From positions 1-52,606 of the forward strand of contig JAGGXI010000085.1 in assembly GCA_021163155.1 (NCBI GenBank): a DNA stretch of 52,606 nt, in the 5' to 3' direction. Below, piece after piece: positions 8,587 through 29,452 of this stretch. Made by a program: the position numbers and the translations under genes. Under the pieces are notes generated by a model. The model was not told the origin of the DNA. It saw nothing but the letters and a program-made list of their open reading frames with translations, and made no database searches. Every line of letters begins with the position of its first letter. Position 1 is the stretch's first letter. The stretch is from Candidatus Aerophobota bacterium. GTDB taxonomy: Bacteria; Aerophobota; Aerophobia; Aerophobales; JAGGXI01.

Positions 8587-8629
8587 TTTTTATCCTATAA
8601 ATATTATAGCTAACTTTTGCACGAAGAAA

Positions 8630-8763
8630 CGGTAGTCGCAAGGCTCAGAGCCTGCGTAAAACAGCGCAACCTGAAGGTTGCGGCTACCATTCATAGTAGA
8701 GCGCAGGCTCTGAGCCTCGCGGATACCGGTTATGTATAAATACAGGCTCTGAGCCTTACGGTT
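8630..8763. repeat. REP-like palindromic repeat cluster (three units)
   Basis: This intergenic spacer is made almost wholly of short palindromes: AAGGCTCAGAGCCTGCG (8640-8656), GCGCAACCTGAAGGTTGCGGC, then CGCAGGCTCTGAGCCTCGCGG (8702-) and CAGGCTCTGAGCC (8743-). GGTAGTCGC and GGCTACC flank the first unit. The same core recurs at 11090-11150, 13400-13435, 34690-34720, 34890-34915 and 50797-50870. The sequence to its left (GCTAACTTTTGCACGAA) recurs in inverted form beside the 50797 copy, so the repeat extends beyond the palindrome. Confidence 0.8.
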
Positions 8764-9781
8764 ATTGAGTTTGAATTTTCTCTAAAGTAATAGATTCATC
8801 TTTTACAATTTCCATTATCGCTTTTTTGTCTATTACTTCTTGTATATCCCTGGGGCTATTCTCATAAGATGGTCTTACCATTTTTATCATCTCTTCTTTT
8901 AAGATAACTCCTTTGGAAATATCAGATTTTGCATAAAGTCCTCTTCGGGCAAACTTTCGTTCAGGTAACTCTTCTAATACAGGTCTTTTTTTACCGTCTC
9001 CCAGGGCTTTCTCAAGTTCTCTTATTTTTTTAATCATTTCAGAAAATTCCTCTACTTCTAAGGCAAATGGATGGTCTGGACCTTTTAAATTTCTATTAAA
9101 TGTAATATGTTTTTCAATTACAGAGGCTCCTAAGGCAACTGCTCCCAGGGGAACTATATAACCCGGTGAGTGGTCCGAGTATCCTACAGGCAAATTGAAG
9201 GTATTTTGCATAGTTACCATAGCTCTAATGTTGGCATCCTTTAATTTTGATGGGTAATTACTAACGCAGTGAAGTAAAATAATTTCTCTATTTCCAACGG
9301 AGTTTACTATTTTTATAGCTTTTTTAACTTCTTCGAGAGTAGCCATTCCTGTAGAGAGTATTATTGGCTTTTTCTTTTGAGCAATGTATTTTAAAAAAGA
9401 ATAACAAGTCAGGTCTCCTGAGGCAACCTTGAAAGCAGGTACATTAATTTTTTCTAAAAGATCTACCTTTTCTTCATCAAAAGGGGTAGAGAGAAAGATA
9501 ATTTTTTCCTTTTGGGCATATTCAGCTAATTCAGAATACCACTTTATAGGTAATTCTATTCTTGAGACTGCCTCATACACTTGAGGGAGTTTCTTTTTAT
9601 TTACCAATTTATCTGCTGTAAATGATTGGAATTTTACAGCATCAGCTCCTGCCTCTTTAGCTGCTTTAGTTAATCTTTTAGCTTGATCCAGTTTTCCATC
9701 ATGATTTGAGCCAATTTCAGCAATGATAAAGCAAGGCTCTCCTTTTCCTATTAAATGGCTTCCTATTTTTATTTTTCTCAT
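8762..9781 (-). CDS. NeuB/PseI-family nonulosonic acid synthase
   Basis: 339 residues, the normal length for the sialic/pseudaminic/legionaminic acid synthase family. These enzymes condense phosphoenolpyruvate with a six-carbon amino sugar. The N-terminal TIM barrel shows IIAEIGSNHDGKL, AGADAVKFQ, FLSTPFDEE, KVASGDL, ILSTGMAT, LLHCVSNYPS and GYSDHSPG. The C-terminal 60 residues form the SAF/antifreeze-like lid (RRGLYAKSDISKG). In context it acts between the PseG and cytidylyltransferase steps. The start is preceded by AGGAAG at a good distance. Whether the product is pseudaminic or legionaminic acid cannot be decided from motifs alone. Confidence 0.88.
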   Translation of the reverse strand: MRKIKIGSHLIGKGEPCFIIAEIGSNHDGKLDQAKRLTKAAKEAGADAVKFQSFTADKLVNKKKLPQVYEAVSRIELPIKWYSELAEYAQKEKIIFLSTPFDEEKVDLLEKINVPAFKVASGDLTCYSFLKYIAQKKKPIILSTGMATLEEVKKAIKIVNSVGNREIILLHCVSNYPSKLKDANIRAMVTMQNTFNLPVGYSDHSPGYIVPLGAVALGASVIEKHITFNRNLKGPDHPFALEVEEFSEMIKKIRELEKALGDGKKRPVLEELPERKFARRGLYAKSDISKGVILKEEMIKMVRPSYENSPRDIQEVIDKKAIMEIVKDESITLEKIQTQ

Positions 9782-11027
9782 TTTTCTTCCTATAATGCAT
9801 TATTATACTTTTTACGGCATTTATCACGGACCCAACATCTTTTTCTTTCATTCCAGGAAACAGAGGCAAAGTAATTGCCTCCTCATAATATTTTTCTGCT
9901 TTAGGACAGATACCCTTTTTGTAACCTAATTTTTCATAATATGGCTGATAGTAGATTGGTATATAGTGAACCTGCACACCAATATTTTTTTTCCGTAATG
10001 TTTCAAAGATTTCTCTACGGCTTGCCTTTAATTTATTTAGCTTAAGCCTTATTACATAAATATGCCAGGCAGATTTGACATCAGGCTTTTCGTAGGGGAT
10101 AATTATCTCTTCTACTTCCTTAAAGGCTCTATTATATTTTTTTACAATTTGCTTTCTTTTTTCTAAGAATTTATTTAGTTTCTTTAATTGAGATATTCCT
10201 AATACACATTGAAAATCAGTTAGACGGTAGTTATATCCAAGCTCCTGCATCTCGTAATACCAGGGAGGTGAGAGGTGAGAGGTGAGACGTGAAACGTGAG
10301 ACGTGAGACGTAAGACGTAAGAGGTAAAACCAAAGGCTAAATCCTTATTGATAAATCTATCTGGATTCTTGGTTATCCCATGATTTCTGAATAAAAGGAG
10401 TTTTTCGTAAAACTCTTCATTGTTGGTGGTTACTGCACCTCCCTCACCAGTAGTGATATTTTTTACTGGATGAAAACTGAAAGTAGTCATATCAGAGTGA
10501 GCGCAGCTTCCCACCTTAACCCATTTTCCCATTAACCTATATTTTGCTCCTAAGGCATGGGAAGCGTCTTCAATTACTACTGAACTATGCTTTTTTGCAA
10601 TTTGATAAATTCTCTCTAAATTAACGGGCTGCCCGGTAAAATCTACAGGGATTATTGCTTTTGTTTTAGAAGTAATTTTTTTCTCAATCTCTTCAGGGTT
10701 TATGTTGTAGGTATCCTCTTTAATATCGGCAAAGACAGGTTTCCCTTGTAAATATAAGATGCAATTGCTACTGGCAACGAAACTGATAGGTGCAGTGATT
10801 GCCTCATTGCCTTTCTTAATTCCTGCAGCAAAAGAAGCTGCGTGCAGAGCTGCTGTTCCGCTGTTAAGAACCACCGCATACTTTGCTCCTACATAATTAG
10901 ATAAGGCTTCTTCAAATTCTCTTACCTTTGAGCCCTGTGTTATCCAATCGCTCTTTAAAACCTTTACTACCTCTTTTATATCCTCATCATCTATTGATTG
11001 ATGTCCATAAGGAAGATAAGTTGGCAT
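9717..11027 (-). CDS. pseC: PseC-like UDP-4-amino-sugar transaminase, with array-encoded insertion
   Basis: 436 residues of the DegT/DnrJ/EryC1 PLP aminotransferase family. Visible motifs are NSGTAALHAA (55-64), IEDASHALGA (152-161) and the PLP lysine K189 in SFHPVKNITTGEGG. The best match is PseC, which aminates C4 of the 4-keto sugar made by PseB. Residues about 233-254 (SYVLRLTSHVSRLTSHL) come from nine 7-bp tandem units and interrupt the otherwise conserved run from GFT to PWYYEMQELGYNYRLTDFQ. The last 22 residues read through the start of the synthase gene (65-base overlap), which looks like a lost stop codon. A GGAGAAATAAAATG start supports the N-terminus. Confidence 0.85.
   Translation of the reverse strand: MPTYLPYGHQSIDDEDIKEVVKVLKSDWITQGSKVREFEEALSNYVGAKYAVVLNSGTAALHAASFAAGIKKGNEAITAPISFVASSNCILYLQGKPVFADIKEDTYNINPEEIEKKITSKTKAIIPVDFTGQPVNLERIYQIAKKHSSVVIEDASHALGAKYRLMGKWVKVGSCAHSDMTTFSFHPVKNITTGEGGAVTTNNEEFYEKLLLFRNHGITKNPDRFINKDLAFGFTSYVLRLTSHVSRLTSHLSPPWYYEMQELGYNYRLTDFQCVLGISQLKKLNKFLEKRKQIVKKYNRAFKEVEEIIIPYEKPDVKSAWHIYVIRLKLNKLKASRREIFETLRKKNIGVQVHYIPIYYQPYYEKLGYKKGICPKAEKYYEEAITLPLFPGMKEKDVGSVINAVKSIIMHYRKKNEKNKNRKPFNRKRRALLYHC
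10268..10330. repeat. In-gene heptamer tandem array (9 x 7 bp)
   Basis: Nine units of the form GTGAGAC/GTGAGAG/GTAAGAC in direct tandem inside pseC. The total length of 63 bp is a multiple of three, so the reading frame survives and 21 extra residues are encoded. Units differ by one or two bases. Confidence 0.9.
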
Positions 11028-11155: not shown

Positions 11156-12091
11156 TAACTGTTTTCTTATCCATTCCCTCGTTTTAGCTATTCCCTTCCT
11201 TAATGAAGTTTTTGGTTTCCACCCCAAAAGAGATTCTGCTCTGCTATAGTCACAACAAAGTTTGGATATCTCACTTTGAGGGTGAATATGTGGAATATGG
11301 TGAATACAATCACCATCATGAGCTATCAATTTAGCCAGTTCATTTATAGAGATATCTTTTCCTGTTCCTGCATTTATGATTTTTCCTGTTGTTTTATCTG
11401 ATAAACCTGCTTTTACAATAAAATTAGCGCAATCCTCTACATATAAAAAATCTCGTGTTTGTGTTCCTTCTCCATAAATATTTAAAGCTTCTCTTTTTAA
11501 ATTTTGCTTTATAAAAATAGAGATTACCCCTCCTTCGCTATTCCCTTTTTGATAAGGACCGTAGGTGTTAAAAGGACGAAGGATTACCACAGGAAGATTG
11601 TAAGCATAATAATAAGATAGAATAAGATTTTCCGCGGATAATTTACTTGCAGCATAAGGAGAGAGGGGGGAAATAGGATAGTTTTCATCAATAGGTTTTA
11701 AATTTCCCTTTTTATATACCATACAGGTACTTATAAAGACAATTTTACTATTTTTTCTCCTTGCTTCTTCTAACATATTAAAAGTTCCTTTAATGTTTAC
11801 TTTGAAAGTTTCCAGAGGATTATCAAGACTTTCTTGAACGCTAATGGTAGATGCTAAATGAAAACAGATATCGAAATTTTCTTCCTCAAAAATTACCCGA
11901 AGGAGATCTCTTTGAAGAATGTCTCCCCTTACGAATCCTTTAAAATAGGGATGTTGTTTAAATTCAGCTATATTTTTCTCCTCTCCGTTAGAAAGGTTAT
12001 CCAAAACATAAACATCGTATTTTTCTTTAAGAAGATATTTCACTGTCCATCTTCCTATAAATCCTGCTCCTCCAGTAACTAAAGTCTTCAT
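11153..12091 (-). CDS. NAD-dependent nucleotide-sugar epimerase/dehydratase
   Basis: 312-residue extended SDR. The NAD motif GGAGFIG is at 7-13, FHLAST near 78-82, and the catalytic Y146/K150 in PYAASK are present. VILRPFNTYGPYQ and TRDFLYVEDCANFIVKA are typical of the UDP-glucose/UDP-GlcNAc 4-epimerase and dTDP-glucose dehydratase family. The ATG overlaps the end of the MerR-PseB gene (4 bases), so the two are co-translated. Position in a nonulosonate operon suggests it supplies an epimerised UDP-amino-sugar. The precise substrate is not visible. Confidence 0.82.
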   Translation of the reverse strand: MKTLVTGGAGFIGRWTVKYLLKEKYDVYVLDNLSNGEEKNIAEFKQHPYFKGFVRGDILQRDLLRVIFEEENFDICFHLASTISVQESLDNPLETFKVNIKGTFNMLEEARRKNSKIVFISTCMVYKKGNLKPIDENYPISPLSPYAASKLSAENLILSYYYAYNLPVVILRPFNTYGPYQKGNSEGGVISIFIKQNLKREALNIYGEGTQTRDFLYVEDCANFIVKAGLSDKTTGKIINAGTGKDISINELAKLIAHDGDCIHHIPHIHPQSEISKLCCDYSRAESLLGWKPKTSLRKGIAKTREWIRKQL

Positions 12092-13368
12092 TTTATTAAG
12101 TTTTCTCTTATTAAAAATTTTTTTATCTCTTCCTGAGTAAGAGAAGGAATTTTTGCTGAAATATAATGTCCATTATTTTCTGGTATATAACTTCCTGGAT
12201 AGGAATGCCTAACATTTTTCCCTATAGCAGGCAAAATAATATACATATCGTCTCTTTCCAGAGCTCTTCTTTCTTCATCTTTAGTCATTAGCTCCTCATA
12301 AATTTTTTCTCCTGGTTTAATGCCTACTTCCTTTATATTATTATGAAAACCAAGTGAATTCTCAATAGCCTCTACAAGGTCCAAAATTTTGATTACAGAC
12401 ATCTTCATAACAAAGATTTCTCCTCCCTTAGCTAAAAGAGTAGCCTTAAAGATAAATTCTGCTGCCTCTCTTAAAAACATAATAAATCTTGTCATCTTTT
12501 TGCTGGTTATAGTAATAGATTTTCCCTTTATCAATTGTTCCTTAAATAGGGGAATAACAGAGCCTCTCGAGCCGAGGACATTACCAAATCGGACGCTGGC
12601 AAAGATTACTCTCCGCTTTCCTTTATAATGATTGGCAGAGGTAAAAAGCTTCTCTGCCATTAGCTTTGTTGCTCCCATTGTGCTGGTGGGATTTACTGCC
12701 TTATCTGTTGAGGTAAAGATAACCTTCTCCACATCCACCTTTAAGGCTGCCTTAATTACATTTTGTGAACCATATACATTAGTGTTTACTGCTTCAAAAG
12801 GGTTGTATTCACAGGAGGCAACATGCTTTAGAGCAGCAGTATGAAAGACAATATCTACATCCTCCATAGCCATTTCCAATCTTTTAGCATCCCTTACATC
12901 ACCAATAAAATACCTAAGATTTTTTTCATCCTTAAATTCTTCCTGCATATTGAATTGTTTGGTTTCATCTCTACTATAGATACGAATTACCATGGGGTCG
13001 AGTGGGAGGAGTTGCCGCACGATCTCCTTGCCTATTGTTCCTGTGCCCCCAGTAATTAGTATTCTTTTTCCTTTAAAATATTTATAGTCGTTATTTTGAG
13101 GGAAATTTTTGCTTTTTCGGGAGGCAAGATTTTCCTGATTACTTTCAAGTATTTTCTTTGCTCCCTTTATGGTATATCCTTCATTTTTAATTAATCTTTT
13201 AATCTCTAAAGCATTTCTTAAGTCGTTTTTATCGTATCTTCTATGTCCTCCTTTACTCCGATAAGGTTGGAGAAAATCATTAAACTCCTTCTCCCAGTAT
13301 CTTAATGTATACTCCTTTATCCCTATCTTTTGACAAACCTCTCTTATGTTTAGAAAGCCGTTATTCAT
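12088..13368 (-). CDS. Fusion: MerR-type HTH + PseB-like UDP-GlcNAc 4,6-dehydratase
   Basis: 426 residues from the chosen ATG at 13368, which has a GAGGATAAA Shine-Dalgarno. The frame extends another 31 codons upstream, but those read through a REP-like repeat. Residues 6-75 are a MerR-family winged helix (LNIREVCQKIGIKEYTLRYWE, YRSKGGHRRYDKNDL). After a linker, a PseB/CapD-type short-chain dehydratase begins (ILITGGTGTIG, 102-113; FHTAALKHV; STDKAVNPTSTMGATK, 220-235). The expected catalytic Tyr is Met (M231), as in WbpM/PglF/CapD enzymes rather than H. pylori-type PseB. It is the first gene of the sugar operon, so the HTH could let the first pathway enzyme regulate its own operon; this is inference. 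Confidence 0.8.
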   Translation of the reverse strand: MNNGFLNIREVCQKIGIKEYTLRYWEKEFNDFLQPYRSKGGHRRYDKNDLRNALEIKRLIKNEGYTIKGAKKILESNQENLASRKSKNFPQNNDYKYFKGKRILITGGTGTIGKEIVRQLLPLDPMVIRIYSRDETKQFNMQEEFKDEKNLRYFIGDVRDAKRLEMAMEDVDIVFHTAALKHVASCEYNPFEAVNTNVYGSQNVIKAALKVDVEKVIFTSTDKAVNPTSTMGATKLMAEKLFTSANHYKGKRRVIFASVRFGNVLGSRGSVIPLFKEQLIKGKSITITSKKMTRFIMFLREAAEFIFKATLLAKGGEIFVMKMSVIKILDLVEAIENSLGFHNNIKEVGIKPGEKIYEELMTKDEERRALERDDMYIILPAIGKNVRHSYPGSYIPENNGHYISAKIPSLTQEEIKKFLIRENLIK

Positions 13369-13394
13369 TTTATCCTCGCTTTGATAATATAGGT

Positions 13395-13440
13395 GGACGC
13401 ATAAGCGCAGGCTCTGATCCTCGCGGCTACCGGTTGCCAA
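13395..13440. repeat. REP-like unit upstream of the sugar operon
   Basis: GCGCAGGCTCTGATCCTCGCGG then CTACCGG, the same core as at 8702 and 34694. It sits in the 5' leader of the MerR-PseB gene and would be transcribed with it. Confidence 0.7.
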
Positions 13441-13512
13441 CCCCATATTTATTATCGGCATATTAAGAAAATACTTTAATTTTATAAGGCAAAATTTATA
13501 CCAAATTATAGA

Positions 13513-16510: not shown

Positions 16511-17797
16511 ATGATGATTCAGACACCTCGAGGAGTGGAAGATATACTCCCCCATCAAATCTCAAAATATCAGTGGATAGAAAAAAAAGCCTCTTCTCTC
16601 TTTCATTTATATGGATATGAAGAGATAAGAATTCCTACTTTCGAAAATGCAGAGCTTTTTCTACGAAGCGTGGGTAAAGAGACAGATGTTGGTAAACAGA
16701 TGTACATTTTTAAGGATAAAAAAGGAAGAAATTTATCTCTTCGCCCAGAGGCTACGGCTTCCGTTGCCAGAGCTTACATCCAGCATAGATTATATGAGAA
16801 ACCGGGAGACTGGAGAGTCTATTATATTGGTCCTATGTTTAGATACGAAAGGCCACAGGCAGGCAGGCTTCGAGAATTTCGACAGATAGGAGTGGAGGTT
16901 TTAGGAGAAGCAGCCCCTCAATTGGATGTAGAAGTTATAGAGATGGTGTGTCAATTTTTTAAAAGATTAGGATTGGCCAATTTCAATGTTCAGCTTAACA
17001 GTATTGGGTGTAAAAAATGTAGACCTGATTATGAAAAAAGACTAAAGGAATATTTTAAGAGAAATATAAGTTCTCTTTGCCCTGTTTGTCAGAAACGGTA
17101 TGAATATAATGTTTTACGTATTTTAGATTGTAAAAAAGAGAGTTGCCAAAAGGTAGTAGAAAAGGCGCCTTTTTTAAAAGATCATTTATGCGAAGATTGT
17201 AAGATTCACTTTGAAAAAGTGAAAATGGGTTTAGAGGATATGGGTATAAAGTTTAATCTCGACCCTTACCTGGTGAGGGGTCTTGATTATTATACAAGAA
17301 CTACCTTTGAAATAACTATTCCTTCGTTAGGAGCTCAAAATGCTATTTGCGGAGGAGGAAGATACGATGGTTTAGTGAAAGAACTGGGAGGTCCCTATAC
17401 TCCTGGGATAGGTTTCTCTATAGGGGTAGAGAGGCTATTGATTGCTCTTGAAAAAGATGAAATGAATTTTTTTCCTAAAAATTCTCCTGGCGTTTATGTA
17501 ATTACTTTAGATAAAAAAAGTCAAAAAATGGGCTATTATTTAGTTAATTTACTTCGCTCTAAGGGCATAAAGACGTGGATGAGTTTTTCAGGAGATAACC
17601 TTTCTTCTCAGTTAAGATTGGCTAACAGAAAGGGAGTTTGTTGGGCAATAATTATAGGTGAAGAAGAGGTCAACAAGGAGATATTAATTCTTAAAGATAT
17701 GGAGTCTGGCAAGCAAAGGGAGATAGAATGGAGAAGATTGGAGGAATTTAGTCAGAATTTAAATTTTCAATTAAAAAGGAGTAGAGATTGCGACTAA
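16511..17797 (+). CDS. hisS: Histidyl-tRNA synthetase
   Basis: 428 residues, typical bacterial HisRS. Class II motifs are visible: motif 2 (FRYERPQAGRLREFRQIGVE), the HisRS signature LVRGLDYYTRTTFE and GGGRYDGLV, and motif 3 GFSIGVERLL. The C-terminal anticodon-binding domain covers about 330-420. An extra cysteine cluster in the insertion region (CKKCRPDY, CPVCQKR, CEDCK) suggests a structural zinc site. There are two ATGs at the start (16511, 16514) with a weak Shine-Dalgarno in the end of mltG. The 3' end overlaps aspS by 10 bases. Confidence 0.95.
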   Translation: MMIQTPRGVEDILPHQISKYQWIEKKASSLFHLYGYEEIRIPTFENAELFLRSVGKETDVGKQMYIFKDKKGRNLSLRPEATASVARAYIQHRLYEKPGDWRVYYIGPMFRYERPQAGRLREFRQIGVEVLGEAAPQLDVEVIEMVCQFFKRLGLANFNVQLNSIGCKKCRPDYEKRLKEYFKRNISSLCPVCQKRYEYNVLRILDCKKESCQKVVEKAPFLKDHLCEDCKIHFEKVKMGLEDMGIKFNLDPYLVRGLDYYTRTTFEITIPSLGAQNAICGGGRYDGLVKELGGPYTPGIGFSIGVERLLIALEKDEMNFFPKNSPGVYVITLDKKSQKMGYYLVNLLRSKGIKTWMSFSGDNLSSQLRLANRKGVCWAIIIGEEEVNKEILILKDMESGKQREIEWRRLEEFSQNLNFQLKRSRDCD

Positions 17798-19551
17798 AAC
17801 GAACTTCTATGTGTAGTCTTTTAAGGGGAAAAGATAAAGATAAAGATGTTGTTTTAGCTGGTTGGGTAAAAAAAAGACGTGATCATGGAGGATTAATTTT
17901 TATTGATTTGGGAGATAAATCGGGAATTATTCAATTAGTATTTAATCCAATAATAGATAAAGATAGCCATACGCAAGCTCACTCTATAAGGGAAGGATGG
18001 GTAATTGCTGTAAAAGGAAAGGTAAAAATGCGGGCCGAGGATTCAATAAATCCAAAGCTGAAAACAGGTAAAATAGAAATAATAGTAAAAGAGCTAAAAA
18101 TATTAAATACTTCTCAGCCTCTCCCTTTCCCTATTGAAGATAAGATAGAGACAAATGAAGAGGTGAGGTTAAGATATAGATATTTAGACCTGCGAAGACC
18201 GATTATGCAAAGGAATATCTATTTAAAATATAGAATAAATAAACAGGTGCGAGATTTTCTTCATAAGAGAGGGTTTACAGAGATAGAGACTCCTTTTCTT
18301 ACTCAAAGTACTCCTGAAGGAGCAAGAGACTATCTGGTTCCCTCAAGGTTAAGTCCAGGAGAATTTTATGCTCTTCCTCAGTCTCCTCAATTATTTAAAC
18401 AGCTTCTTATGGTAGCCGGTTTTGACAAATATTTTCAGATAGTTAGGTGTTTTCGAGATGAAGATTTGAGAGCGGATAGACAGCCAGAGCACACTCAAAT
18501 AGACATAGAACTCTCTTTTATAGAAGAAGAGGATATATATGATCTTATTGAGAAAATGTTTTCCTTTGTATTTAACGAAGTTTTAGGAATCTCGCTTGAA
18601 ACTCCTTTTCCCCGTTTTAGCTATGAAGAGGTGGTGAGTCGATACGGCACTGATAAACCTGATATTAGATTTGGGTTGGAATTAAAGAATATCTCATCTC
18701 TGGTTAGTTCCTGTAAATTTGAGGTATTTCGTAAGGTTTTAGAGAAAGGAGGAAAAGTTAAAGGATTACGAGTTCCCAGAGGAAGTTCTCTTTCTCGAAA
18801 TGATATAGAGAAATTAATTAGGGAGATAACCTTCTACGGAGCTAAAGGATTGAGCTGGATTATCTTTGCTTCAAAAGAAAAAATAAGATCTCCATTAGTC
18901 AAGTTTTTTAGTAAATCTGAGCTTTTAAAAATAGTAGAATATATGGAAGGTGAAGAAGGAGATGCTTTCTTTTTTATAGCTGATGAAAAAACAGTAGTAA
19001 ATGAGGCTTTATCCCATCTTCGTCTCTACTTAGCAAAAAAGTTTCATCTTATCCCTGAGAAAACTCACAGATTATTATGGGTTATAAATTTTCCTTTATT
19101 TGAATACGATAAAGAGGGAAAGTTGGCTCCCTGTCATCATCCCTTTACCTCGCCGCGAGAGGAAGATTTGCCATTATTGGAGGAAAGTCCTGAAAAGGTA
19201 AAGGCTCGTTCTTACGATATTGTTATGGATGGAGAGGAAGTTGGAGGAGGAAGCATAAGGATTCATAGAAGAGGAATCCAGGAGAGGGTTTTAGAAATTT
19301 TAGGGATGACTTCTCTTCAAGCAAGGGAGAAATTTGGTTTTCTCCTTGAAGCTCTCTCTTTTGGAGCTCCTCCTCATGGAGGAATTGCCATAGGATTAGA
19401 CCGCTTAACAATGATATTAGCTGGAGAAAAATCTATAAGAGAGGTTATTCCTTTCCCTAAAACTCAGAAAGCGGTTTGTCTTTTAACTCAGGCTCCCTGT
19501 CCTGTAAATGAAGAGCAGCTTAAAGAGTTGCATTTAAAGGTAGAGGAGTGA
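17788..19551 (+). CDS. aspS: Aspartyl-tRNA synthetase
   Basis: 587 residues of bacterial type with the N-terminal OB-fold anticodon domain (VVLAGWVKKRRDHGGLIFIDLGD), class II motif 1/2 (ETPFLTQSTPEGARDYLVPSR, QSPQLFKQLLMVAGFDKYFQIVRCFRDEDLRADRQPE), a GAD insertion at about 280-400, and motif 3 (GIAIGLDRLTMIL). The start is a TTG at 17788 preceded by AAGGAG at 17776-17781. The first ATG (17809) would remove conserved N-terminal residues. Whether it is discriminating (Asp only) or also charges tRNA-Asn cannot be decided without knowing if asnS or gatCAB exists. Confidence 0.95.
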   Translation: MRLKRTSMCSLLRGKDKDKDVVLAGWVKKRRDHGGLIFIDLGDKSGIIQLVFNPIIDKDSHTQAHSIREGWVIAVKGKVKMRAEDSINPKLKTGKIEIIVKELKILNTSQPLPFPIEDKIETNEEVRLRYRYLDLRRPIMQRNIYLKYRINKQVRDFLHKRGFTEIETPFLTQSTPEGARDYLVPSRLSPGEFYALPQSPQLFKQLLMVAGFDKYFQIVRCFRDEDLRADRQPEHTQIDIELSFIEEEDIYDLIEKMFSFVFNEVLGISLETPFPRFSYEEVVSRYGTDKPDIRFGLELKNISSLVSSCKFEVFRKVLEKGGKVKGLRVPRGSSLSRNDIEKLIREITFYGAKGLSWIIFASKEKIRSPLVKFFSKSELLKIVEYMEGEEGDAFFFIADEKTVVNEALSHLRLYLAKKFHLIPEKTHRLLWVINFPLFEYDKEGKLAPCHHPFTSPREEDLPLLEESPEKVKARSYDIVMDGEEVGGGSIRIHRRGIQERVLEILGMTSLQAREKFGFLLEALSFGAPPHGGIAIGLDRLTMILAGEKSIREVIPFPKTQKAVCLLTQAPCPVNEEQLKELHLKVEE

Positions 19552-21464
19552 AGTATATTAAGGTAGCCTTAAATCTTCCTTTAAATCAGCTTTTTTATTA
19601 CAAGGTTCCTCCAGAACTTATGGATAGAATTAAGATAGGCAAAAGAGTAATTGTTCCTTTTAAAAGAAAAAACTTAACTGGTTTTGTAATAGAAGAGACA
19701 AAAAGAGGGAAACCAGGGAAAAGATTAAAAGAGATAATTAAAGTAGATGATTTCCCCTTTTTAGATACCAATCTTCTTCGATTAGGAGAGTGGATAAGTG
19801 ATTATTATTTTTGTTCTTTAGGACAGACCCTCCATTTTATGCTTCCTATCCAATCCAGTTTAAAGATTGGCAAAGAAGAGAAAATAAAAATTAGTGATTC
19901 TTTTGCCTTTTTTAACAAAACTCAATATAATGAAGCTATTTCCCTGGTAGAAGAAGGAAACTTTTTATTTAGGCCAAAGAATAATGAGGAGAAAATATCT
20001 TTTTACCTTTTATTAATAGAAAAAATAGTGGAAGAGAAAGGAAAGAATGTTATTCTCATTATTCCTGAAATTAGTTATATACCTTTTTTAAAGAAGGTAA
20101 TTCGCTATTATTTTCCCCAGGAGATAGCTATTTTCCACAGTAGACTTTCCCTAAAAGAAAAGTATAATCAATGGCTGAAAATGAGAGAGGGGAAGGTAAA
20201 TTTGGCTATAGGAACACGCTCTCTTATATTCGCCCCTTTCCCCCAAATAGGTTTAGTTATAATTGAAGAAGAAGAAAATACCTCCTATAAGCAGATAGAA
20301 GCTCCTCGCTACCATGTTCGGGAAGTAGCTATAAAACGGAGAGAGATAGAAAGATTTCCTTTAATTTTAACTACCCAAAGTCCCTCTTTGGAGTCCTGGT
20401 ATAATGTGAAAAAAGGGAATTATAAATTAATTGAGCTTTCTCAGAATAGTAGACGTTTTTTAGTAGAAATTGTAGACCTTCGTGAGGAAAAAACTAAAAT
20501 TCTCTCCTCCTCTTTAGAAGAAGGAATTAAAGAAAGTTTAAATAAAAATAAGCTTATGCTCCTTTTTATAAATAAGCGAGGTTTTGCTAACTTTATTCTC
20601 TGCAGGGAATGTGGAGGAGTTATTAGATGCCCTAATTGTAATATAGGTCTTACTTTTCACCTGGGTGATGATTTGGTTTGTCACTATTGCAATTATCGAA
20701 CGAGGGTTCCTCGTATCTGCCCTTTTTGTAAAGGGAGGGAACTTCGAAGAGTAGGAGCAGGAACACAACGGGTAGAAAGAGAGATAAGGAAAAAATTTCA
20801 AACAGCTCGCATAAAACGGGTAGATAAAGATGCCATTAATTCATCATCGGCTTATAAAAAATTATTACAGGATCTTGAAGATAAAAAGATTGACATACTG
20901 GTAGGGACACAGCTGGTGATCAAAGAGGAAATTTTAAAAAGAATAGATTTAGTAGGAATTGTTCTTGTTGATACTTTGTTGAATTTGCCAGATTTTAGAG
21001 CGACTGAACGTCTCTTCCAGCTTCTTACAAGAATTAAAGGGCATATTAAAGAAAGAGGAAAGATTATCATTCAAACTTATAATCCTTCTCATTATGCTTT
21101 AAAAGCATTTAAAGAAGGCAAAGATGAAGATTTTTATAATGAGGAGATGAGAATAAGAAAAGAGTTAGATTATCCACCTTATTTACACTGGATAAGAATT
21201 TTATTGGAAGGAAAGATAAAAAATGAAGTAGAGGAGGCAGGAAAAATGATTGAAGAAAAATTGAAGAAAGAGAGTTTAAGGTTTTTAGGTCCTTCCTCTT
21301 GCCCTTTTAGCAAAATTAGGGGAAAGTATCGCTATCATTTAATTTTAAGAGATGAAGATTTATCCTGGATAAAAAAAATATTGGATGAAAAATTAAAGCC
21401 TTTGTTTACTCATTTTAAGGGAATTAGGACAACCGTGGATGTAGAGCCTTTAAGGACGATGTAA
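19548..21464 (+). CDS. priA: PriA-like primosomal protein N' with degenerate helicase motifs
   Basis: 638 residues (E. coli PriA has 732). The start is GTG overlapping the aspS TGA. The N-terminal 3'-DNA-binding domain (1-100), IIPEISYIP, IGTRSLIFAPF, the complete cysteine set (C352, C355, C361, C364, C379, C382, C391, C394) and LLNLPDFRATERLFQLL mark it clearly as PriA. The Walker A position (about 141-150), normally GVTGSGKTE, reads RPKNNEEKIS. Motif II DEEH reads EEEEN (240-244), SATPS reads TQSPS, and the motif VI GRAGR region reads GHIKERG. ATP binding and helicase activity are therefore predicted lost, with the scaffold for DNA and primosome binding kept, as known for actinobacterial PriA. 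Confidence 0.88.
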   Translation: MKYIKVALNLPLNQLFYYKVPPELMDRIKIGKRVIVPFKRKNLTGFVIEETKRGKPGKRLKEIIKVDDFPFLDTNLLRLGEWISDYYFCSLGQTLHFMLPIQSSLKIGKEEKIKISDSFAFFNKTQYNEAISLVEEGNFLFRPKNNEEKISFYLLLIEKIVEEKGKNVILIIPEISYIPFLKKVIRYYFPQEIAIFHSRLSLKEKYNQWLKMREGKVNLAIGTRSLIFAPFPQIGLVIIEEEENTSYKQIEAPRYHVREVAIKRREIERFPLILTTQSPSLESWYNVKKGNYKLIELSQNSRRFLVEIVDLREEKTKILSSSLEEGIKESLNKNKLMLLFINKRGFANFILCRECGGVIRCPNCNIGLTFHLGDDLVCHYCNYRTRVPRICPFCKGRELRRVGAGTQRVEREIRKKFQTARIKRVDKDAINSSSAYKKLLQDLEDKKIDILVGTQLVIKEEILKRIDLVGIVLVDTLLNLPDFRATERLFQLLTRIKGHIKERGKIIIQTYNPSHYALKAFKEGKDEDFYNEEMRIRKELDYPPYLHWIRILLEGKIKNEVEEAGKMIEEKLKKESLRFLGPSSCPFSKIRGKYRYHLILRDEDLSWIKKILDEKLKPLFTHFKGIRTTVDVEPLRTM

Positions 21465-21468
21465 TAAG

Positions 21469-22371
21469 ATGCTAAAGAAAAATTTAGATGTTGGAGGGCA
21501 GGCTGTTATAGAGGGAGTCATGATGCGTTCTCCGGAATATATTACTGTTGCTGTTAGAAAAAGTAGTGGAGAAATAGTAGTGAAGAAAGAACATTATATT
21601 TCCCTTAGTAAAAGATTCAAGTTACTTAATCTTCCTATTGTTAGAGGGATTGTAACATTAGGAGAGACATTATATATTGGAATAAAAGCTTTGGCTTTCT
21701 CTGCAGAAGAAGCTGTAGAATCTATAGAAGAGGAAGATACCTCTAAAGAGAAAAAAGAAAAGAGAGGGATATTTACCAGTTTATGGTTAATAGGTACAAT
21801 TATCTTTGCCTTTATCCTAGCTTTTCTTCTATTTTTTTATCTTCCTTTAATGATAGCTACCTTTTTGAATATTAAAGGAGGATTTTTATTTAATTTTGTA
21901 GATGGGATAATAAGAGTAGCTATTTTTTTAATTTATATTTGGGCAATTACACTCTGGAAGGATATGAGAAGAATATTTGAATATCATGGTGCAGAACATA
22001 AAAGTATCTACACTCTTGAGGCAGGTGATGATTTATTGCCTGCAAATGCAAAAAAGTATTCCACCCTTCATCCTCGATGTGGAACAAGTTTTCTCTTAAT
22101 TGTGATGATAGTAAGTATTATTGTTTTTATGTTTCTTGGTAGACCCCATACTTTAAGCGACAGATTGGTAAGATTTTTGTTCATTCCCTTGATTGCTGGC
22201 ATATCTTATGAACTATTAAAATTATCAGGAAAAAAGAGAGAGAGTAAAATCACTAAAGTTTTAATAGCACCAGGATTATGGCTTCAAAAAATAACTACAA
22301 AAGAGCCAGATGAAAAACAACTAGAGGTAGCCATAGCTGCTTTGAAAGAAGCGTTAGATTTAAGTCCGTAG
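21469..22371 (+). CDS. DUF1385 (YqhQ-like) membrane protein
   Basis: 300 residues. DUF1385 is marked by the N-terminal GGQAVIEGVMMRSPEYITVAVR, FEYHGAEHKSIYTLEAG and HPRCGTSFLL. Hydrophobic segments at about 104-130, 140-165, 205-225 and 230-248 suggest four membrane helices. The conserved EYHGAEHK and HPRCGT motifs next to membrane helices look like a metal or active site, but the biochemical role is not established. It begins 5 bases after priA. Confidence 0.82.
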   Translation: MLKKNLDVGGQAVIEGVMMRSPEYITVAVRKSSGEIVVKKEHYISLSKRFKLLNLPIVRGIVTLGETLYIGIKALAFSAEEAVESIEEEDTSKEKKEKRGIFTSLWLIGTIIFAFILAFLLFFYLPLMIATFLNIKGGFLFNFVDGIIRVAIFLIYIWAITLWKDMRRIFEYHGAEHKSIYTLEAGDDLLPANAKKYSTLHPRCGTSFLLIVMIVSIIVFMFLGRPHTLSDRLVRFLFIPLIAGISYELLKLSGKKRESKITKVLIAPGLWLQKITTKEPDEKQLEVAIAALKEALDLSP

Positions 22372-22544: not shown

Positions 22545-25169
22545 ATGGAAAGTAATGAAATTAGAAGAAGATTTCTCGATTTTTTTGAGCAGAAAGGACA
22601 TCTTATTCAACCTTCTGCGCCTTTATCTGTAAATGACCCGGAATTACTCTTCACCATTGCGGGGATGGTTCCCTTTAAAAAATTTTTCTTAGGAAAAAGT
22701 AGGCCCCCGGCTAGTCGTTTATCTTCTTGCCAGCTATGCTTTCGCACGAACGATCTGGAGAGGGTAGGGGAGACTTCTTATCATCATACTCTTTTTGAGA
22801 TGTTAGGTAATTTCTCTTTTGGTGATTATTTTAAAGAAGAGGCTTGTCAATGGGGATGGGAATTTATAACAAAAGAGTTAAATCTTCCAGGAGAAAAACT
22901 ATGGGTTACTATATTCAAGGACGATGAAGAAACTTATCATATATGGAAAAAGATAGGCATTCCCTCTTCAAGGATAGTAAAAAAGAATGAAGAGGAAAAT
23001 TTCTGGTCTTCAGCTGAGGTGGGTCCCTGTGGTCCGGATACAGAGATATTTTTGGATAGAGGGGAAAAATTTGGTTGTGGAAGAAAAAATTGTGTTCCTG
23101 GCTGTGATTGTCAACGATGGATTGAGATATGGAATTTAGTATTTATGCAGTTTAACAGGGATGAAGAGGGAAAACTTTCTCCTCTCCCCTCAAAAAATAT
23201 TGATACAGGAATGGGGTTGGAAAGAATAACCTCTATCTTACAGAATGTAACTGATGACTATTTCACGGATCTTTTCCGTCCTCTTATGGATTGGTTAAAA
23301 GACATTTCTTCTTCAAAAAAAGAAAAACCCTTCAGGGTTATCTGTGACCATTTGCGGGCTCTTACATTTCTTTTAGGGGAAGGGATTTTACCTTCAAATA
23401 CTGGAAGAGGTTATGTATTAAGAAGAGTTCTTAGACGTGCTTTTTTATATGGAAGAAAATTGGGATTAGAGAAGCCTTTTCTCTATAAAGGAGTCCCTCT
23501 AATAACAGAAATGATGAGAGAACCCTATCCTCATCTAAAAAGAGAAAAAGAAAAAATAGTGAGGGTAATTAAAGATGAAGAAGAGAATTTTCAGAATACT
23601 TTAACTCGAGGGATAGGAATACTGGAAGGATTGATAGAAGATTTAAAGAGAAAGGGGGATAAAATTGTTCCCTCTAAGGATGTATTTAAGTTATACGATA
23701 CCTATGGCTTTCCCATAGAACTGACAGAAGAAATAACTAAAGAGGAAGGGTTAAGCATAGATAAACAGGCAAGTGAAATATTTTTAGCTGAACAGAGGGA
23801 AAGAGGGAGAAAAAAATTTAAAGAAAAAATTGGAGCAACATTAAAGGATATATATAATATAGTGCATATAGACGATGAAGCAAAATTGAAAGTAAAAGTA
23901 AAGTTTGAAGGGTATGAAAAGTTAAAACTAAAGACAACTATTGAAGGAATTATTAAAGGAGAAAAGCTGGTAAGTGAGATAAAAGAAGGAGAGGAGGGAA
24001 AATTTATTTTAACCTCTACACCATTTTATCCCGAAAGGGGAGGCCAAGTAGGGGATAGAGGTAAGATCTTTAATTCTACCTCTCAATCTACAGTTGTTGA
24101 CACAAAAAAAATAAATGAGGGAATAATTCTTCATTATGTTAAAGTAATTAAAGGAAAACTTAAAAAAGGAGACGAAGTAATAGCCGAGGTTAATAAAAAA
24201 AGAAGAGAAAGTATCTGCCGAGCTCATACAGCAACTCATCTTTTACAGGCGAGTCTAAGAAAGATTTTAGGAGAAACTGTTAAACAGAGCGGTTCTTTGG
24301 TGGATGAAGATAGACTTCGTTTCGATTTTACCTATTCTTCGTCTATAAATAAAGAAAACCTTGAAAGGCTTTCTATCTTACTTAATGAAAAGGTGAGAGA
24401 AGATCTTCCTATAAATATAGAAGAGATGGGATTGGATGAGGCAAGGCAGAGAGGAGCTATAGCTCTTTTTGAAGAAAGATACAAAGAAAGAGTTCGTGTA
24501 GTAAATATTGGAAATTTTAGTATGGAAGTTTGTGGGGGGACCCATCTTTCCAGAACAGGAGAAATAGGTTTAATAAAAATAGTAAATGACTTATCTGTGG
24601 CTTCAGGAATAAGAAGAATAGAAGCTCTTACAGGTGAGAGAGCTTTGAGATGGATGGAGAAGAAAGGAGATATGTTAAAGGGGATTGTCTTTAAATTAAA
24701 TATCTCTGAAGATAAAATATTACCTTATATAGAAGAAATAGAAAAAGATTTAAGAGAGAAAGAAGAGGAATTAAAGAAATGGCAAAGAAGGTTTATAGAT
24801 TCTCATATAGAAGGACTGATAAAGAAAGCTTCTCAAATTGGTAAAGTAAAAGTGATAAAAGAAAGATGGGAGGGTATATCTTTAGAAGTACTTAGAGAAG
24901 GAGCAGAAAAGATAAAAAATAGATTAGAAGAGGGAATAGTAGTTTTAGCCTCTGTTAGTAGAAATAAAGCATTTTTGGTGGCTGCTTCCACCAAGAAAAG
25001 CCTACCTGCAAACAAGATAATAAAAGAAGTAGCCTCTCTTGCTGATGGAAATGGAGGAGGAAGATGGGATTTTGCTCAAGGAGGAACCTCTCACCCCTCA
25101 AAAGTGAGCTCAGCTTTAGAAAAGTTGCCTCTTATTGTAAAAAAACTTTTGCATCAAGAGAATCGGTAG
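22545..25169 (+). CDS. alaS: Alanyl-tRNA synthetase
   Basis: 874 residues, full length. The class II catalytic core begins FLDFFEQKGHLIQPSAPL, with FTIAGMVPFKKFFLG, SCQLCFRTNDLERVGETSYHHTLFEMLGNFSFGDYFK, and DTGMGLERI for motif 3. The editing domain has the zinc ligands HTATHLL and CGGTH. The C-terminal C-Ala domain ends with the Gly-rich DGNGGGRWDFAQGG. No T-box is seen upstream; the leader holds repeats instead. The stop TAG lies in a CGGTAGCCGCAG fragment that matches the REP-like repeats. Confidence 0.96.
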   Translation: MESNEIRRRFLDFFEQKGHLIQPSAPLSVNDPELLFTIAGMVPFKKFFLGKSRPPASRLSSCQLCFRTNDLERVGETSYHHTLFEMLGNFSFGDYFKEEACQWGWEFITKELNLPGEKLWVTIFKDDEETYHIWKKIGIPSSRIVKKNEEENFWSSAEVGPCGPDTEIFLDRGEKFGCGRKNCVPGCDCQRWIEIWNLVFMQFNRDEEGKLSPLPSKNIDTGMGLERITSILQNVTDDYFTDLFRPLMDWLKDISSSKKEKPFRVICDHLRALTFLLGEGILPSNTGRGYVLRRVLRRAFLYGRKLGLEKPFLYKGVPLITEMMREPYPHLKREKEKIVRVIKDEEENFQNTLTRGIGILEGLIEDLKRKGDKIVPSKDVFKLYDTYGFPIELTEEITKEEGLSIDKQASEIFLAEQRERGRKKFKEKIGATLKDIYNIVHIDDEAKLKVKVKFEGYEKLKLKTTIEGIIKGEKLVSEIKEGEEGKFILTSTPFYPERGGQVGDRGKIFNSTSQSTVVDTKKINEGIILHYVKVIKGKLKKGDEVIAEVNKKRRESICRAHTATHLLQASLRKILGETVKQSGSLVDEDRLRFDFTYSSSINKENLERLSILLNEKVREDLPINIEEMGLDEARQRGAIALFEERYKERVRVVNIGNFSMEVCGGTHLSRTGEIGLIKIVNDLSVASGIRRIEALTGERALRWMEKKGDMLKGIVFKLNISEDKILPYIEEIEKDLREKEEELKKWQRRFIDSHIEGLIKKASQIGKVKVIKERWEGISLEVLREGAEKIKNRLEEGIVVLASVSRNKAFLVAASTKKSLPANKIIKEVASLADGNGGGRWDFAQGGTSHPSKVSSALEKLPLIVKKLLHQENR

Positions 25170-25624: not shown

Positions 25625-27214
25625 ATGGCAAACGTAACAATCAACAAAAATATAGAGCAGGGGGAAATAGTAGTTGTTTTTTCTTCGTATGATCCTAAAT
25701 TTGTGACTAAAGTTAAATCTATTGAGGGTCATAGGTGGCACCCGGATAAGAAGTATTGGAGTTTTCCCTACTCAGAAGATATTATTAAAAGGATTTTATC
25801 GGTTTTTAAGGGTGAAAATATCCATGTAGATTCTACTTTACAAGTTTCTTTTAATCAAAATGCCGATAAGCGAGTACCGAATCAAGCTCAAATCACGAAG
25901 ATAGCAAAAAAAGAGAAAGAACTTTCTATTAATCTTAATCATGAAGATATGATAAAAGTGAGTGAAAATAGAGAATTTTATAAATTGCCTTCGCTTTTAC
26001 AAAGTTTGTTTGAAGACAGAGTAGAATTATTACCATCAGTTAATGAATTATTTGAGCTAGAATTAGCCTATTTGGAGTATAATTGTTTACCAAAAGAAAA
26101 TTTGTTGGATAGGTTAGCCTATTTTAAATCTGTTGATAGTAAATTTACAAAGCACTTTTTAATGTACAATCATCCTACGAAAGCACTTACAGATAACCGA
26201 TTAGCAAATACAAAAGCTTATTTTGAAAATGGATTATTTTCCACAGGGTATGCGACGCATGGACTATTTCCTTATCGTGGAAAGTTTCATCCTCAGTTAA
26301 TTAAAGCTTTGATTAATACCATTGGAATAAAAAAGGGAGAGACTATTTTAGACCCAATGTGCGGGAGTGGAACAACAAACATTGAATCCGCATTAATGGG
26401 TATAAATTCTTACGCGATTGATTTAAGCCCCTTTTGTCAGTTTATGATCAAAGTAAAGTACAATAGTTTATCTATAAACATTGAACTATTAAAAGGAATT
26501 TCCAATAAATCAGAACAGCTATTTAATTTCTTTAGCATTAACGAACCACAAAAACAGTTACAAGAAATTAAAGATATTGAAAAATTAAAAGTTTATGAAT
26601 TGGCTCTACTTGCTTTTTTAGATTCTCTTGGATATTCTAAGAGAGTGGTTAAATCCAGTCATAAACAGCTTTTTACAAAAGTTCTAAAAAGATATGAAAG
26701 AACAGTTATTGATTTTATATTAAATAGCTCTCAATATATAAGTGAATTAGGAACCGTTAACATTTTAGAAGATGCTACTGCAAAGAAGATACCGTTAGAA
26801 GATAGCTCAATTGATGGGGTAATTACATCTCCACCGTATTCATTCGCTATTGATTATGTAAAAAATGATGAAGCTCAATTAAAGTTTCTGGGGTATAATG
26901 TTGACGATATTAGGAATGAAATGGTTGGTTTAATTGGCAAAAATAAAAATGAGCGATTAGAAAATTATTTTAAAGATATGGAATCTGTATGTTCAGAAGT
27001 ATCAAGGGTGCTAAAAAAAGATAAATATTTTGTGATGATTATAGGGTCTAATACAAATCAAACTGGCGGTATCAGGTTGGAAAGTAAGATAATAGAGTCT
27101 TGCAAAAAACATAATTTAACATTGGTTAAAAGCATTTTAAAGCCCATAAAAGGTATGAGAAACACGATGAAGGATGAATATATATTATTTTTTAAGAAAC
27201 AAGGAGGGAAATAA
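25625..27214 (+). CDS. DNA methyltransferase (TSPPY type) with HARP-like N-terminal domain
   Basis: 529 residues. Residues about 10-65 (IVVVFSSYDPKFVTKVKSIE, RWHPDKKYWSFP) resemble the HARP-like DNA-binding module found in annealing helicases and some recombinases. The SAM motif DPMCGSGTTNIESA is at 243-256 and the catalytic motif TSPPYS at 401-406. This order (SAM motif first) and the Ser-Pro-Pro-Tyr form suggest N4-cytosine methylation, though N6-adenine is possible. It opens the locus that also encodes a nuclease and a second methyltransferase. The Shine-Dalgarno is poor (GGAGG about 20 bases from the ATG). Confidence 0.75.
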   Translation: MANVTINKNIEQGEIVVVFSSYDPKFVTKVKSIEGHRWHPDKKYWSFPYSEDIIKRILSVFKGENIHVDSTLQVSFNQNADKRVPNQAQITKIAKKEKELSINLNHEDMIKVSENREFYKLPSLLQSLFEDRVELLPSVNELFELELAYLEYNCLPKENLLDRLAYFKSVDSKFTKHFLMYNHPTKALTDNRLANTKAYFENGLFSTGYATHGLFPYRGKFHPQLIKALINTIGIKKGETILDPMCGSGTTNIESALMGINSYAIDLSPFCQFMIKVKYNSLSINIELLKGISNKSEQLFNFFSINEPQKQLQEIKDIEKLKVYELALLAFLDSLGYSKRVVKSSHKQLFTKVLKRYERTVIDFILNSSQYISELGTVNILEDATAKKIPLEDSSIDGVITSPPYSFAIDYVKNDEAQLKFLGYNVDDIRNEMVGLIGKNKNERLENYFKDMESVCSEVSRVLKKDKYFVMIIGSNTNQTGGIRLESKIIESCKKHNLTLVKSILKPIKGMRNTMKDEYILFFKKQGGK

Positions 27215-27517
27215 AATGCTAGATATTATGGAAAAAATACCTTCTGAAATAGAAGATCAGGAAATGGAAGTATAGTTTATAAAATCGCTAATTATCCTGC
27301 AGATTTCACCTTACAGGGTTTATACGATAAACAGGAACATGAAAATATACTACAAAAAATTGATACAAAAAGTATAGATGGATTAAATAGTATAGTTAAT
27401 AACAAAAATAATATTGCACATGGTAAAGTATCAAATGCTACTGTTGGAGATATTATGGGCTATCATCAAAATGCGTTAAAAATTTTTGAGGTGTTGGAAA
27501 AAATATTATTATCTTAA
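27215..27517 (+). pseudogene. HEPN-type nuclease remnant (MAE_28990/RiboL-PSP-HEPN-like)
   Basis: An ATG at 27215 gives 19 codons (MLDIMEKIPSEIEDQEMEV) and a stop. A second open stretch, shifted by one frame (about 27262-27517), continues with YKIANYPADFTLQGLY, then NNKNNIAHGKVSNATVGDIM and a leucine-rich end. NxxAHG plus flanking helices is the C-terminal signature of HEPN RNases in the RiboL-PSP/MAE_28990 group. Most of the central domain is missing. Such genes are common in defence islands. Placement inside this locus is as expected; activity is not. Confidence 0.6.
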
Positions 27518-27545
27518 TTATTAAAATGAAACGGAGAGGATTAAG

Positions 27546-28535
27546 TTGAGTTATCTATCATTAGACAAAAAATTCAATACTGTTATTACAAAAAACACCT
27601 TTTATTTTTACAATAAAGAATTTGAGGAAGCATACGAAGGATATGTTAATTCAATCAAAGAAACTTTACTTGTTTTAAAGAATCAAGTCCAAAATAAAGG
27701 GTTGAGAAAAGAATTATTTGAGGACTTAATTCATAAAAAAAAGAATGGATTGAGGGCTTTACTTGCATTAACAGGTTTTTCAAATGAGAGCCTAAAAAGA
27801 CTTATAACCTTTATACGAATAATTGATGATCCGGAATTAAACGTTCTTATTTATAAAGAAAAATGGATAACAGAAGCAGAAATAAATGATAAGGAGAATA
27901 TTAAGGAATGGTCAGATAAGAAAATTGGGAAGAGAATACGAGAAAGCGAGTTTTTTAGAAAAGGTTTAGTAAATATCTTTTTTGAAGGTTCTACAATTCC
28001 AATTCTTTCTAATGTTTTGCCGCTCTTTGAACTTAAAAAATTGAGTATTTCGAAGCTAAATTTTGAAATAGATGCATTAATTGATACATTGATTCGTTAT
28101 AAAGAAAAAGGTTCCTATTCAGGCAAGAAAGAGAATAATCCAGAAGTAGTTATCGAGGATATGCTTGATGAACTGGGGATTAGATTTGAGAAGGGAGATT
28201 TGGGAGAGTTGATAAACAATGCTCCAGATACAAAAAGAACAATGGATTTTATTATTCCTGATAAAAAAAGCCCAAAAATAATTATTGAGTGTTCATATTT
28301 AGTTACGACCTCCTCAGGCCAAGGAGATAAGTCAAAAACAGAGATTTCAATTGATTCCTTAATTAAAGAACATTATCCTGATGCTCATTTTTGGGGCTTC
28401 GTTGATGGAATTGGTTGGTATGTAAGAAAAAACGACCTAAAAAGAATGGTTGTTGCTTATGAGGATGTTTTTACATTCCACCAGGGGGAATTAGAGCGAT
28501 TTAAACAATTACTGAAAGAAGTTTTTGGCAGATGA
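27546..28535 (+). CDS. Type II restriction endonuclease, DpnII-like
   Basis: 329 residues from a TTG start with a strong GGAGAGGA 5 bases upstream. The C-terminal third carries a PD-(D/E)xK-type core: D234 in TMDFII, then E248-C-S250 in KIIIECSY, followed by a Ser/Gly-rich loop and KTEISIDSLIK, as in the DpnII family where a polar residue replaces the Lys. The N-terminal 200 residues are helical with no recognised domain. Its end overlaps the next methyltransferase by 4 bases, a typical restriction-modification arrangement. Family assignment is from motif pattern and context; recognition site unknown. Confidence 0.65.
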   Translation: MSYLSLDKKFNTVITKNTFYFYNKEFEEAYEGYVNSIKETLLVLKNQVQNKGLRKELFEDLIHKKKNGLRALLALTGFSNESLKRLITFIRIIDDPELNVLIYKEKWITEAEINDKENIKEWSDKKIGKRIRESEFFRKGLVNIFFEGSTIPILSNVLPLFELKKLSISKLNFEIDALIDTLIRYKEKGSYSGKKENNPEVVIEDMLDELGIRFEKGDLGELINNAPDTKRTMDFIIPDKKSPKIIIECSYLVTTSSGQGDKSKTEISIDSLIKEHYPDAHFWGFVDGIGWYVRKNDLKRMVVAYEDVFTFHQGELERFKQLLKEVFGR

Positions 28536-29452
28536 TAGGTAAATATATTAATAGTGTGATTCAGGGAGATTGTTTAAAAGTTATGCGAGATATTCCGGAT
28601 AATAGTGTAGATATAACATTCGCTGACCCTCCTTTTAATTTAAAGAAAAAATATAATGGATATAAGGATAATAAAGAATTTAGCGCATATTTGGATTGGT
28701 GTAAGCAGTGGATTTATGAAATGGTTAGAATTACAAAGCCTAACGGTTCTATATTTGTCCACAATATTCCGAAATGGCTAACATATTATGCAGGTTTTTT
28801 GAATAAAAATGCTTATTTTAAACACTGGATTGCGTGGGATGCACCAACCGCACCAATGGGGAAAAGCTTGCAACCTTCTCATTATGGCATTTTATATTAT
28901 GCGAAGGATTTAAAACAGAATAAATTTTATGAAATCCGTTATCCGCATAAGCGATGTAGAAAGTGTGGCTATCTTCTAAAAGATTATGGTGGGAAAAAAG
29001 CCGGGTTGCATCCGTTTGGACCATTAGTATCTGATGTGTGGACTGATATCCATCGAATTAAACACAATAAATATAGAAACGAACATCCGTGTCAGTTGCC
29101 GATACATTTATTAGAAAGGATAGTTCTGATGAGTACAAATGAAAATGATATTGTATTAGATCCTTTTGTTGGAACTGGAACAACTGTTATTGCTGCAAAG
29201 AGATTGGGACGAAGATTTATTGGGATTGATATTGATGAAAAGTATGCAAATATCACAAAAGATAAACTATCCAGAGAATCATCCAACTCTAAGATTGGTG
29301 ATGTTTGGGTTAGCTTTTACCTGGATGAGATAGCAACAATTAGAGATATAGACTGGGTAAAATTGGCGCAATATTTCTTGATTCCTGAGAATATTAAAGA
29401 TATTGACTTTACAAAAATAAAATTTGGTAGGCAAATAACATTATTAAAATAA
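28532..29452 (+). CDS. Type II DNA methyltransferase, DPPF type (beta order)
   Basis: 306 residues. The catalytic motif ADPPFNLKKKYNG (31-43) precedes the SAM-binding motif LDPFVGTGTTVIAA (209-222), the beta-class order. DPPF suggests N6-adenine methylation. A CRKCGYLL pair (142-145) in the target-recognition region may bind zinc. The C-terminal 60 residues after GIDIDEKYANIT are an extra tail. Translationally coupled to the nuclease gene, so it most likely protects the nuclease's site. Confidence 0.85.
   Translation: MIGKYINSVIQGDCLKVMRDIPDNSVDITFADPPFNLKKKYNGYKDNKEFSAYLDWCKQWIYEMVRITKPNGSIFVHNIPKWLTYYAGFLNKNAYFKHWIAWDAPTAPMGKSLQPSHYGILYYAKDLKQNKFYEIRYPHKRCRKCGYLLKDYGGKKAGLHPFGPLVSDVWTDIHRIKHNKYRNEHPCQLPIHLLERIVLMSTNENDIVLDPFVGTGTTVIAAKRLGRRFIGIDIDEKYANITKDKLSRESSNSKIGDVWVSFYLDEIATIRDIDWVKLAQYFLIPENIKDIDFTKIKFGRQITLLK

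Follow-up and report, generated by a model that had tools for sequence, protein, structure and literature searches.

We are largely confident that the PriA protein encoded in the window, i.e. the whole stretch of 52,606 nucleotides from a Candidatus Aerophobota bacterium analysed here, is an ATP-independent pseudohelicase, that it is the sole PriA found in its genome and is fixed in the order, and that it would recognise abandoned forks and help DnaB and DciA to reload. Within this reading, the analysis shows what the protein is, that its motifs are lost, that it is under selection and fixed, how it is predicted to fold and that most of the order's genomes have DciA and DnaB, while we infer the lack of ATPase activity, the binding to forks and the reloading with DnaB and DciA.

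The gene product belongs to the PriA family over its whole length. It scores 473 bits with the TIGR00595 model (E 9.2e-142; cut-off 230), matches the PRK05580 model with an E-value of 2e-169 and, in a phmmer search against the PDB, matches the Klebsiella and E. coli PriA structures (E 1e-86). The Pfam models for the 3'-binding domain (3'BD), the cysteine-rich region (CRR) and the C-terminal domain (CTD) match the protein, and those for DEAD and Helicase_C do not. In other words, the parts that define a PriA, i.e. the 3'BD, the CRR with its eight zinc cysteines and the PriA CTD, are all present, and the GKT of Walker A, DEEH, SATP and GRxGR, by which an active PriA helicase (SF2 ATPase) is recognised, are missing. 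By sequence, the protein qualifies as a PriA pseudohelicase, i.e. a PriA ortholog that is the sole copy and has lost the catalytic motifs.

Alignment of the window PriA with about 76 intact ones shows changes in each of its five catalytic motif regions (I, II, III, V and VI; Table 1). This confirms the initial annotation, in which Walker A, DEEH and the GRAGR region were described as altered, and adds motifs III and V. Seventeen intact PriAs share 143 near-invariant positions; the order has kept 88 of these and lost 55, and the lost positions cluster at residues 141-153 (motif I), 171-189, 240/243 (motif II), 275-278 (motif III), 460-464 (motif V) and 495-506 (motif VI). Over the motif I region, pairwise identity within the order is 28% and conservation is half of that among intact PriAs; the P-loop residues vary freely among members of the order. 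At the former motif V, new order-specific conserved residues (KEEI) are found, and the former motif VI is a basic patch. Judged from these changes, the window PriA most likely neither binds nor hydrolyses ATP in the canonical manner and, as a consequence, would not unwind the nascent lagging strand. It is highly improbable that ATP is still used via a rewired pocket or via a partner ATPase acting in trans. An acidic EEEE and KR/KK near the old P-loop remain, and the sister-like G053 and G198 keep a GPPxxGKTE loop, but the P-loop has lost its glycines and GKT, little is left of motif III, the arginines of motif VI have disappeared, and members of the order differ freely in their P-loop residues.

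Table 1. Features of the window and of the PriA protein that it encodes. Positions are those of the window; residues are those of the PriA protein.
Feature	Position	Strand	Description
ATP-grasp + methyltransferase fusion	4490-6787	-	nonulosonic acid cluster
CMP-sugar transferase + GT28-C domain fusion	6784-8586	-	nonulosonic acid cluster
NeuB	8762-9781	-	nonulosonic acid cluster
DegT aminotransferase	9717-11027	-	nonulosonic acid cluster
MerR-type/CapD-PseB-like fusion	12088-13461	-	PF13411 + PF02719
aspS	17788-19551	+	operon partner upstream of priA; conserved in order
priA pseudohelicase gene	19548-21464	+	638 aa; GTG start; 4-nt overlap with aspS stop codon
3'-binding domain	19548-19847	+	residues 1-100; PF17764, E 2.6e-28; 52% mean pairwise identity in order
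Short disordered linker at usual winged-helix site	19848-19916	+	residues 101-123; pLDDT <50 at 105-121; length comparison
Motif I / Walker A, degenerate	19971-19997	+	residues 142-150; RPKNNEEKI for HGVTGSGKT
GTRS, kept	20211-20222	+	residues 222-225
Motif II / Walker B, degenerate	20265-20276	+	residues 240-243; EEEE for DEEH
Lobe-1 loop after motif II, kept	20286-20321	+	residues 247-258; YKQxExPRYHxR
Motif III, degenerate	20370-20384	+	residues 275-279; TTQSP for GSATP (TTQSPS for GSATPS)
Cysteine-rich region	20601-20729	+	residues 352-394; PF18319; eight zinc ligands: 352, 355, 361, 364, 378, 381, 391, 394
Motif V, changed	20904-20933	+	residues 453-462; GTQLVIKEEI for GTQMxAKGxD
LLNLPDFRA, kept	20976-21002	+	residues 477-485
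Motif VI / arginine fingers, degenerate	21030-21059	+	residues 495-504; RIKGHIKERG for QVAGRAGR
PriA C-terminal domain	21177-21449	+	residues 544-634; PF18074, E 9e-16
DUF1385 gene	21469-22371		between priA and alaS in the window
alaS	22545-25169	+	operon partner downstream of priA; conserved in order
Restriction-modification island	25625-29452	+	DpnII-like endonuclease at 27546-28535
RadA/Sms	34970-36331	-	
Mfd	39992-43210	-	

Several parts outside these motifs are kept. All eight zinc cysteines, PEIS (residues 173-176), GTRS and LLNLPDFRA are present, so that the earlier description of the zinc cysteines, IIPEIS/GTRS and LLNLPDFRA as kept was borne out. The 3'BD, CRR and CTD are 1.5-1.8 times more conserved in the order than among intact PriAs; for the CTD, mean pairwise identity is 51% in the order and 28% among intact PriAs. 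In the lobe-1 loop that follows motif II, K248, Q249, E251, P253 and Y255 are invariant in the order, and this loop is taken to be the counterpart of the loop that, in the structure of E. coli PriA, forms a wedge at the fork junction (PMC10175261). The winged-helix domain, which the initial annotation did not mention, is missing: residue 100 and the motif I strand are separated by 40 residues, compared with approximately 85-250 in most intact PriAs. Because 11 of the 76 PriAs with intact motifs also have no winged helix, this domain is not a family-defining feature. Position 17, which we take to be the Asp of the E. coli pocket, was dropped as an informative site; it is Thr in most of the intact PriAs compared.

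The predicted fold supports that the window protein is built as a PriA. An AlphaFold2 model reached a pLDDT of 88.3 and a pTM of 0.88, and, when compared with the PDB, five PriA entries lead with Z-scores of 32.0-34.8 followed by Mfd as the next family (Z 18.8). The top match is the winged-helix deletion of E. coli PriA (6dcr; Z 34.8, 606 residues, rmsd 3.0). Because the model was built from 33 alignment rows with intact PriAs among them, the fold in part follows from homology.

The loss of the motifs is fixed in the order. In the order sample of 17 genomes, 14 PriAs including that of the window are well readable; the other 13 share 44-59% identity with the window protein, and all 14 are without the GKT of motif I, an intact DEEH and GRxGR. 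A profile search revealed no second PriA in the window's own genome (G000; 1.83 Mb, 93% complete, 119 contigs) or in any of the 17 genomes of the order. Thus, the two observations that were named in advance as speaking against a kept role, i.e. a second complete priA in the same genome and relatives with intact motifs indicative of a local pseudogene, were looked for in these genomes and neither was made. The loss of the motifs itself and the divergence of the motif I region could also mean that PriA is no longer needed and that the gene is a decaying pseudogene on its way out. However, we regard this as exceedingly improbable: the reading frames are intact with 600-700 aa in 13 genomes and one more is cut by a contig end, dN/dS is 0.15-0.27 (NG86, seven close pairs) and 0.25-0.38 (YN00, pairs where computable), the eight cysteines are kept, the aspS-priA-alaS synteny is conserved in the order, and the state is fixed across an order as deep as the identities above indicate. 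Purifying selection, conserved synteny and the fact that the domains for DNA and zinc binding were selectively retained speak for a role that was preserved without helicase activity, as originally proposed, with the role itself being deduced.

What this role would be is suggested by the parts that are kept. A PriA that has lost unwinding could have gained a different, non-restart role, e.g. as a repair scaffold bound to SSB or DNA, and the order-specific KEEI and the basic patch at the former motifs V and VI, respectively, would fit such a change. We consider this unlikely, since the elements by which PriA binds forks (3'BD, CRR, CTD and the fork-wedge loop) are all retained and no second PriA was found that could take care of restart. 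Instead, we suggest a model in which the ATP-independent PriA acts in restart. In this model, abandoned forks and D-loops would be recognised by their structure via the 3'BD, the fork-wedge loop of lobe 1, the zinc-bearing CRR and the CTD. The window PriA would hold the lagging-strand ssDNA and serve as a platform for the reloading of DnaB, which would be brought by DciA. Forks with a duplex lagging strand would either need another helicase (RecG, RadA or UvrD-type) or be unusable.

The presence of DciA in 16 and of DnaB in 15 of the 17 genomes of the order is consistent with this model. Searches for a loader of the DnaC/DnaI type gave only IS21-type IstB, DnaA-like and other AAA matches, a judgement based on their length and weak scores. 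Neither DnaB nor RecG had a match in the window's own assembly, which reflects either assembly gaps or real loss; the missing DnaB match counts against the model. RecG was also without a match in family f6 (G005, G008, G010). It was rejected as a general compensating helicase, since only 8 of the 17 genomes have it at full or almost full length and 2 others have a partial copy. The window itself carries genes for RadA/Sms and Mfd (Table 1).

PriA pseudohelicases as a kind are already known. The purified PriA of D. radiodurans has no ATPase or helicase activity, binds ssDNA, forks and its DnaB, and was named a pseudohelicase; in PriAs of Deinococcus-Thermus, the lysine of the Walker A GKT is replaced by arginine (PMC4504706). 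The D. radiodurans and window proteins are alike in that Walker A and B are ruined and the DNA-binding parts are kept, and ATPase activity and unwinding would not be expected in the latter either. Moreover, the Deinococcus-Thermus control genomes carry DciA as does the window's order. By contrast, none of motifs I, II, III, V and VI survives in the window PriA, which also has no winged helix. The initial annotation referred to actinobacteria as the precedent. The clearest precedent, however, is in Deinococcus-Thermus (PMC4504706), and the actinobacterial PriA is described only as smaller and very divergent (PMC1193525). The window PriA is likewise short, but PRK14873 is not its best model (E 2.5e-47 as opposed to 2e-169 for PRK05580); because it scores far better with the canonical models, it represents a case separate from the actinobacterial PriA. 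With canonical PriA (E. coli and Klebsiella; 6dcr, 4nl4, 8fak), it shares the fold, 3'BD, CRR, CTD, fork-wedge loop and DFRA, while the ATPase motifs and the winged helix are not shared. ATPase-deficient variants of E. coli PriA (K230 variants) can still assemble primosomes although they do not unwind DNA, as cited in PMC4504706 and PMC10175261. This is the behaviour that would be expected of the window PriA; however, the variants are laboratory point mutants whereas the order has reached its state naturally and lineage-wide.

The additions made here to this known kind are a case that spans a whole lineage and is distant from the actinobacterial PriA, the joint loss of the winged helix and the ATPase, a sister-like group that has lost the motifs in part and is a possible intermediate, and a census of recurrence across bacteria. 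E. coli with an ATPase-dead PriA is reportedly viable, and since then it has been an open question how important the helicase activity of PriA is outside the laboratory. Because the helicase is gone from a whole lineage in which the fork-binding, zinc and C-terminal parts remain under selection, our data indicate that recognition and loading are the essential part of PriA. The PriAs of the order are also natural separation-of-function proteins with which restart could be reconstituted with DciA instead of DnaC/DnaT.

The loss of ATPase motifs is not confined to this order. In the census of 74 unselected representatives of other families, which are related to the window's genome at the domain level, motifs I, II and VI are all lost in eight, including the only weakly PriA-like G051 and G097, and lost in part in two. 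Further cases (G100, G124, G137, G139, G140, G157 and G207) were taken from genomes that scored low in a wider search and do not form an unbiased sample. Because the pattern is seen in many unrelated lineages, it is less striking than initially claimed; the Firmicutes-like gene context that was part of this claim was unsupported, the order having no relatives short of the domain level in the comparison set. PriAs without ATPase motifs were also seen in families far from the order (L035, L044, L101, L112, L114, L118, L119, L120 and L123). In two loci of one family (L079 and L103 in G026 and G174), GKT is changed to GKM and DEEH to DEEQ while GRAGR is kept, and these PriAs are possibly another, minimally changed pseudohelicase.

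The PriAs of the order form one clade (support 100). In G053 and G198, the Walker A loop is kept, DEEH is changed to DGEE or ESEE and GRxGR is gone; in G080, all key motifs are lost. The order, G080 and G053/G198 group together in both trees, with a support of 95 with the motif columns included and 41 without. A common origin of the loss in these lineages is therefore only possible, because the support drops to 41 once the motif columns are removed. The tree of the better-aligned rows requires at least five state changes without motif columns, and the tree with motif columns and the longest rows eight. In the unselected subset, the winged helix is missing in 5 of 9 PriAs with ATPase loss and in 8 of 64 intact PriAs (p 0.007), a comparison in which descent is not accounted for and phylogeny-aware pairs are few. 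One may speculate that ATPase loss is a recurrent end point tied to the loss of the winged helix, with both forming one fork-unwinding module, and that the order and G053/G198 record the sequence of decay to an ATP-free loading platform for DnaB and DciA, but we hold this broader reading to be rather doubtful. DciA was also tried as the factor that permits ATPase loss and rejected: it is present in 8 of 11 representatives with a dead or partial PriA and in 53 of 64 with an intact one (Fisher p 0.42).

Outside the priA locus, three other features of the window were observed (Table 1). A cluster for nonulosonic acid (4490-11027, minus strand) contains two fusion proteins in addition to NeuB and a DegT aminotransferase. 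In an unusual fusion, a MerR-type helix-turn-helix is joined N-terminally to a CapD/PseB-like nucleotide-sugar dehydratase/epimerase. Finally, directly downstream of alaS lies a restriction-modification island in which the DpnII-like endonuclease is encoded between two DNA methylases.
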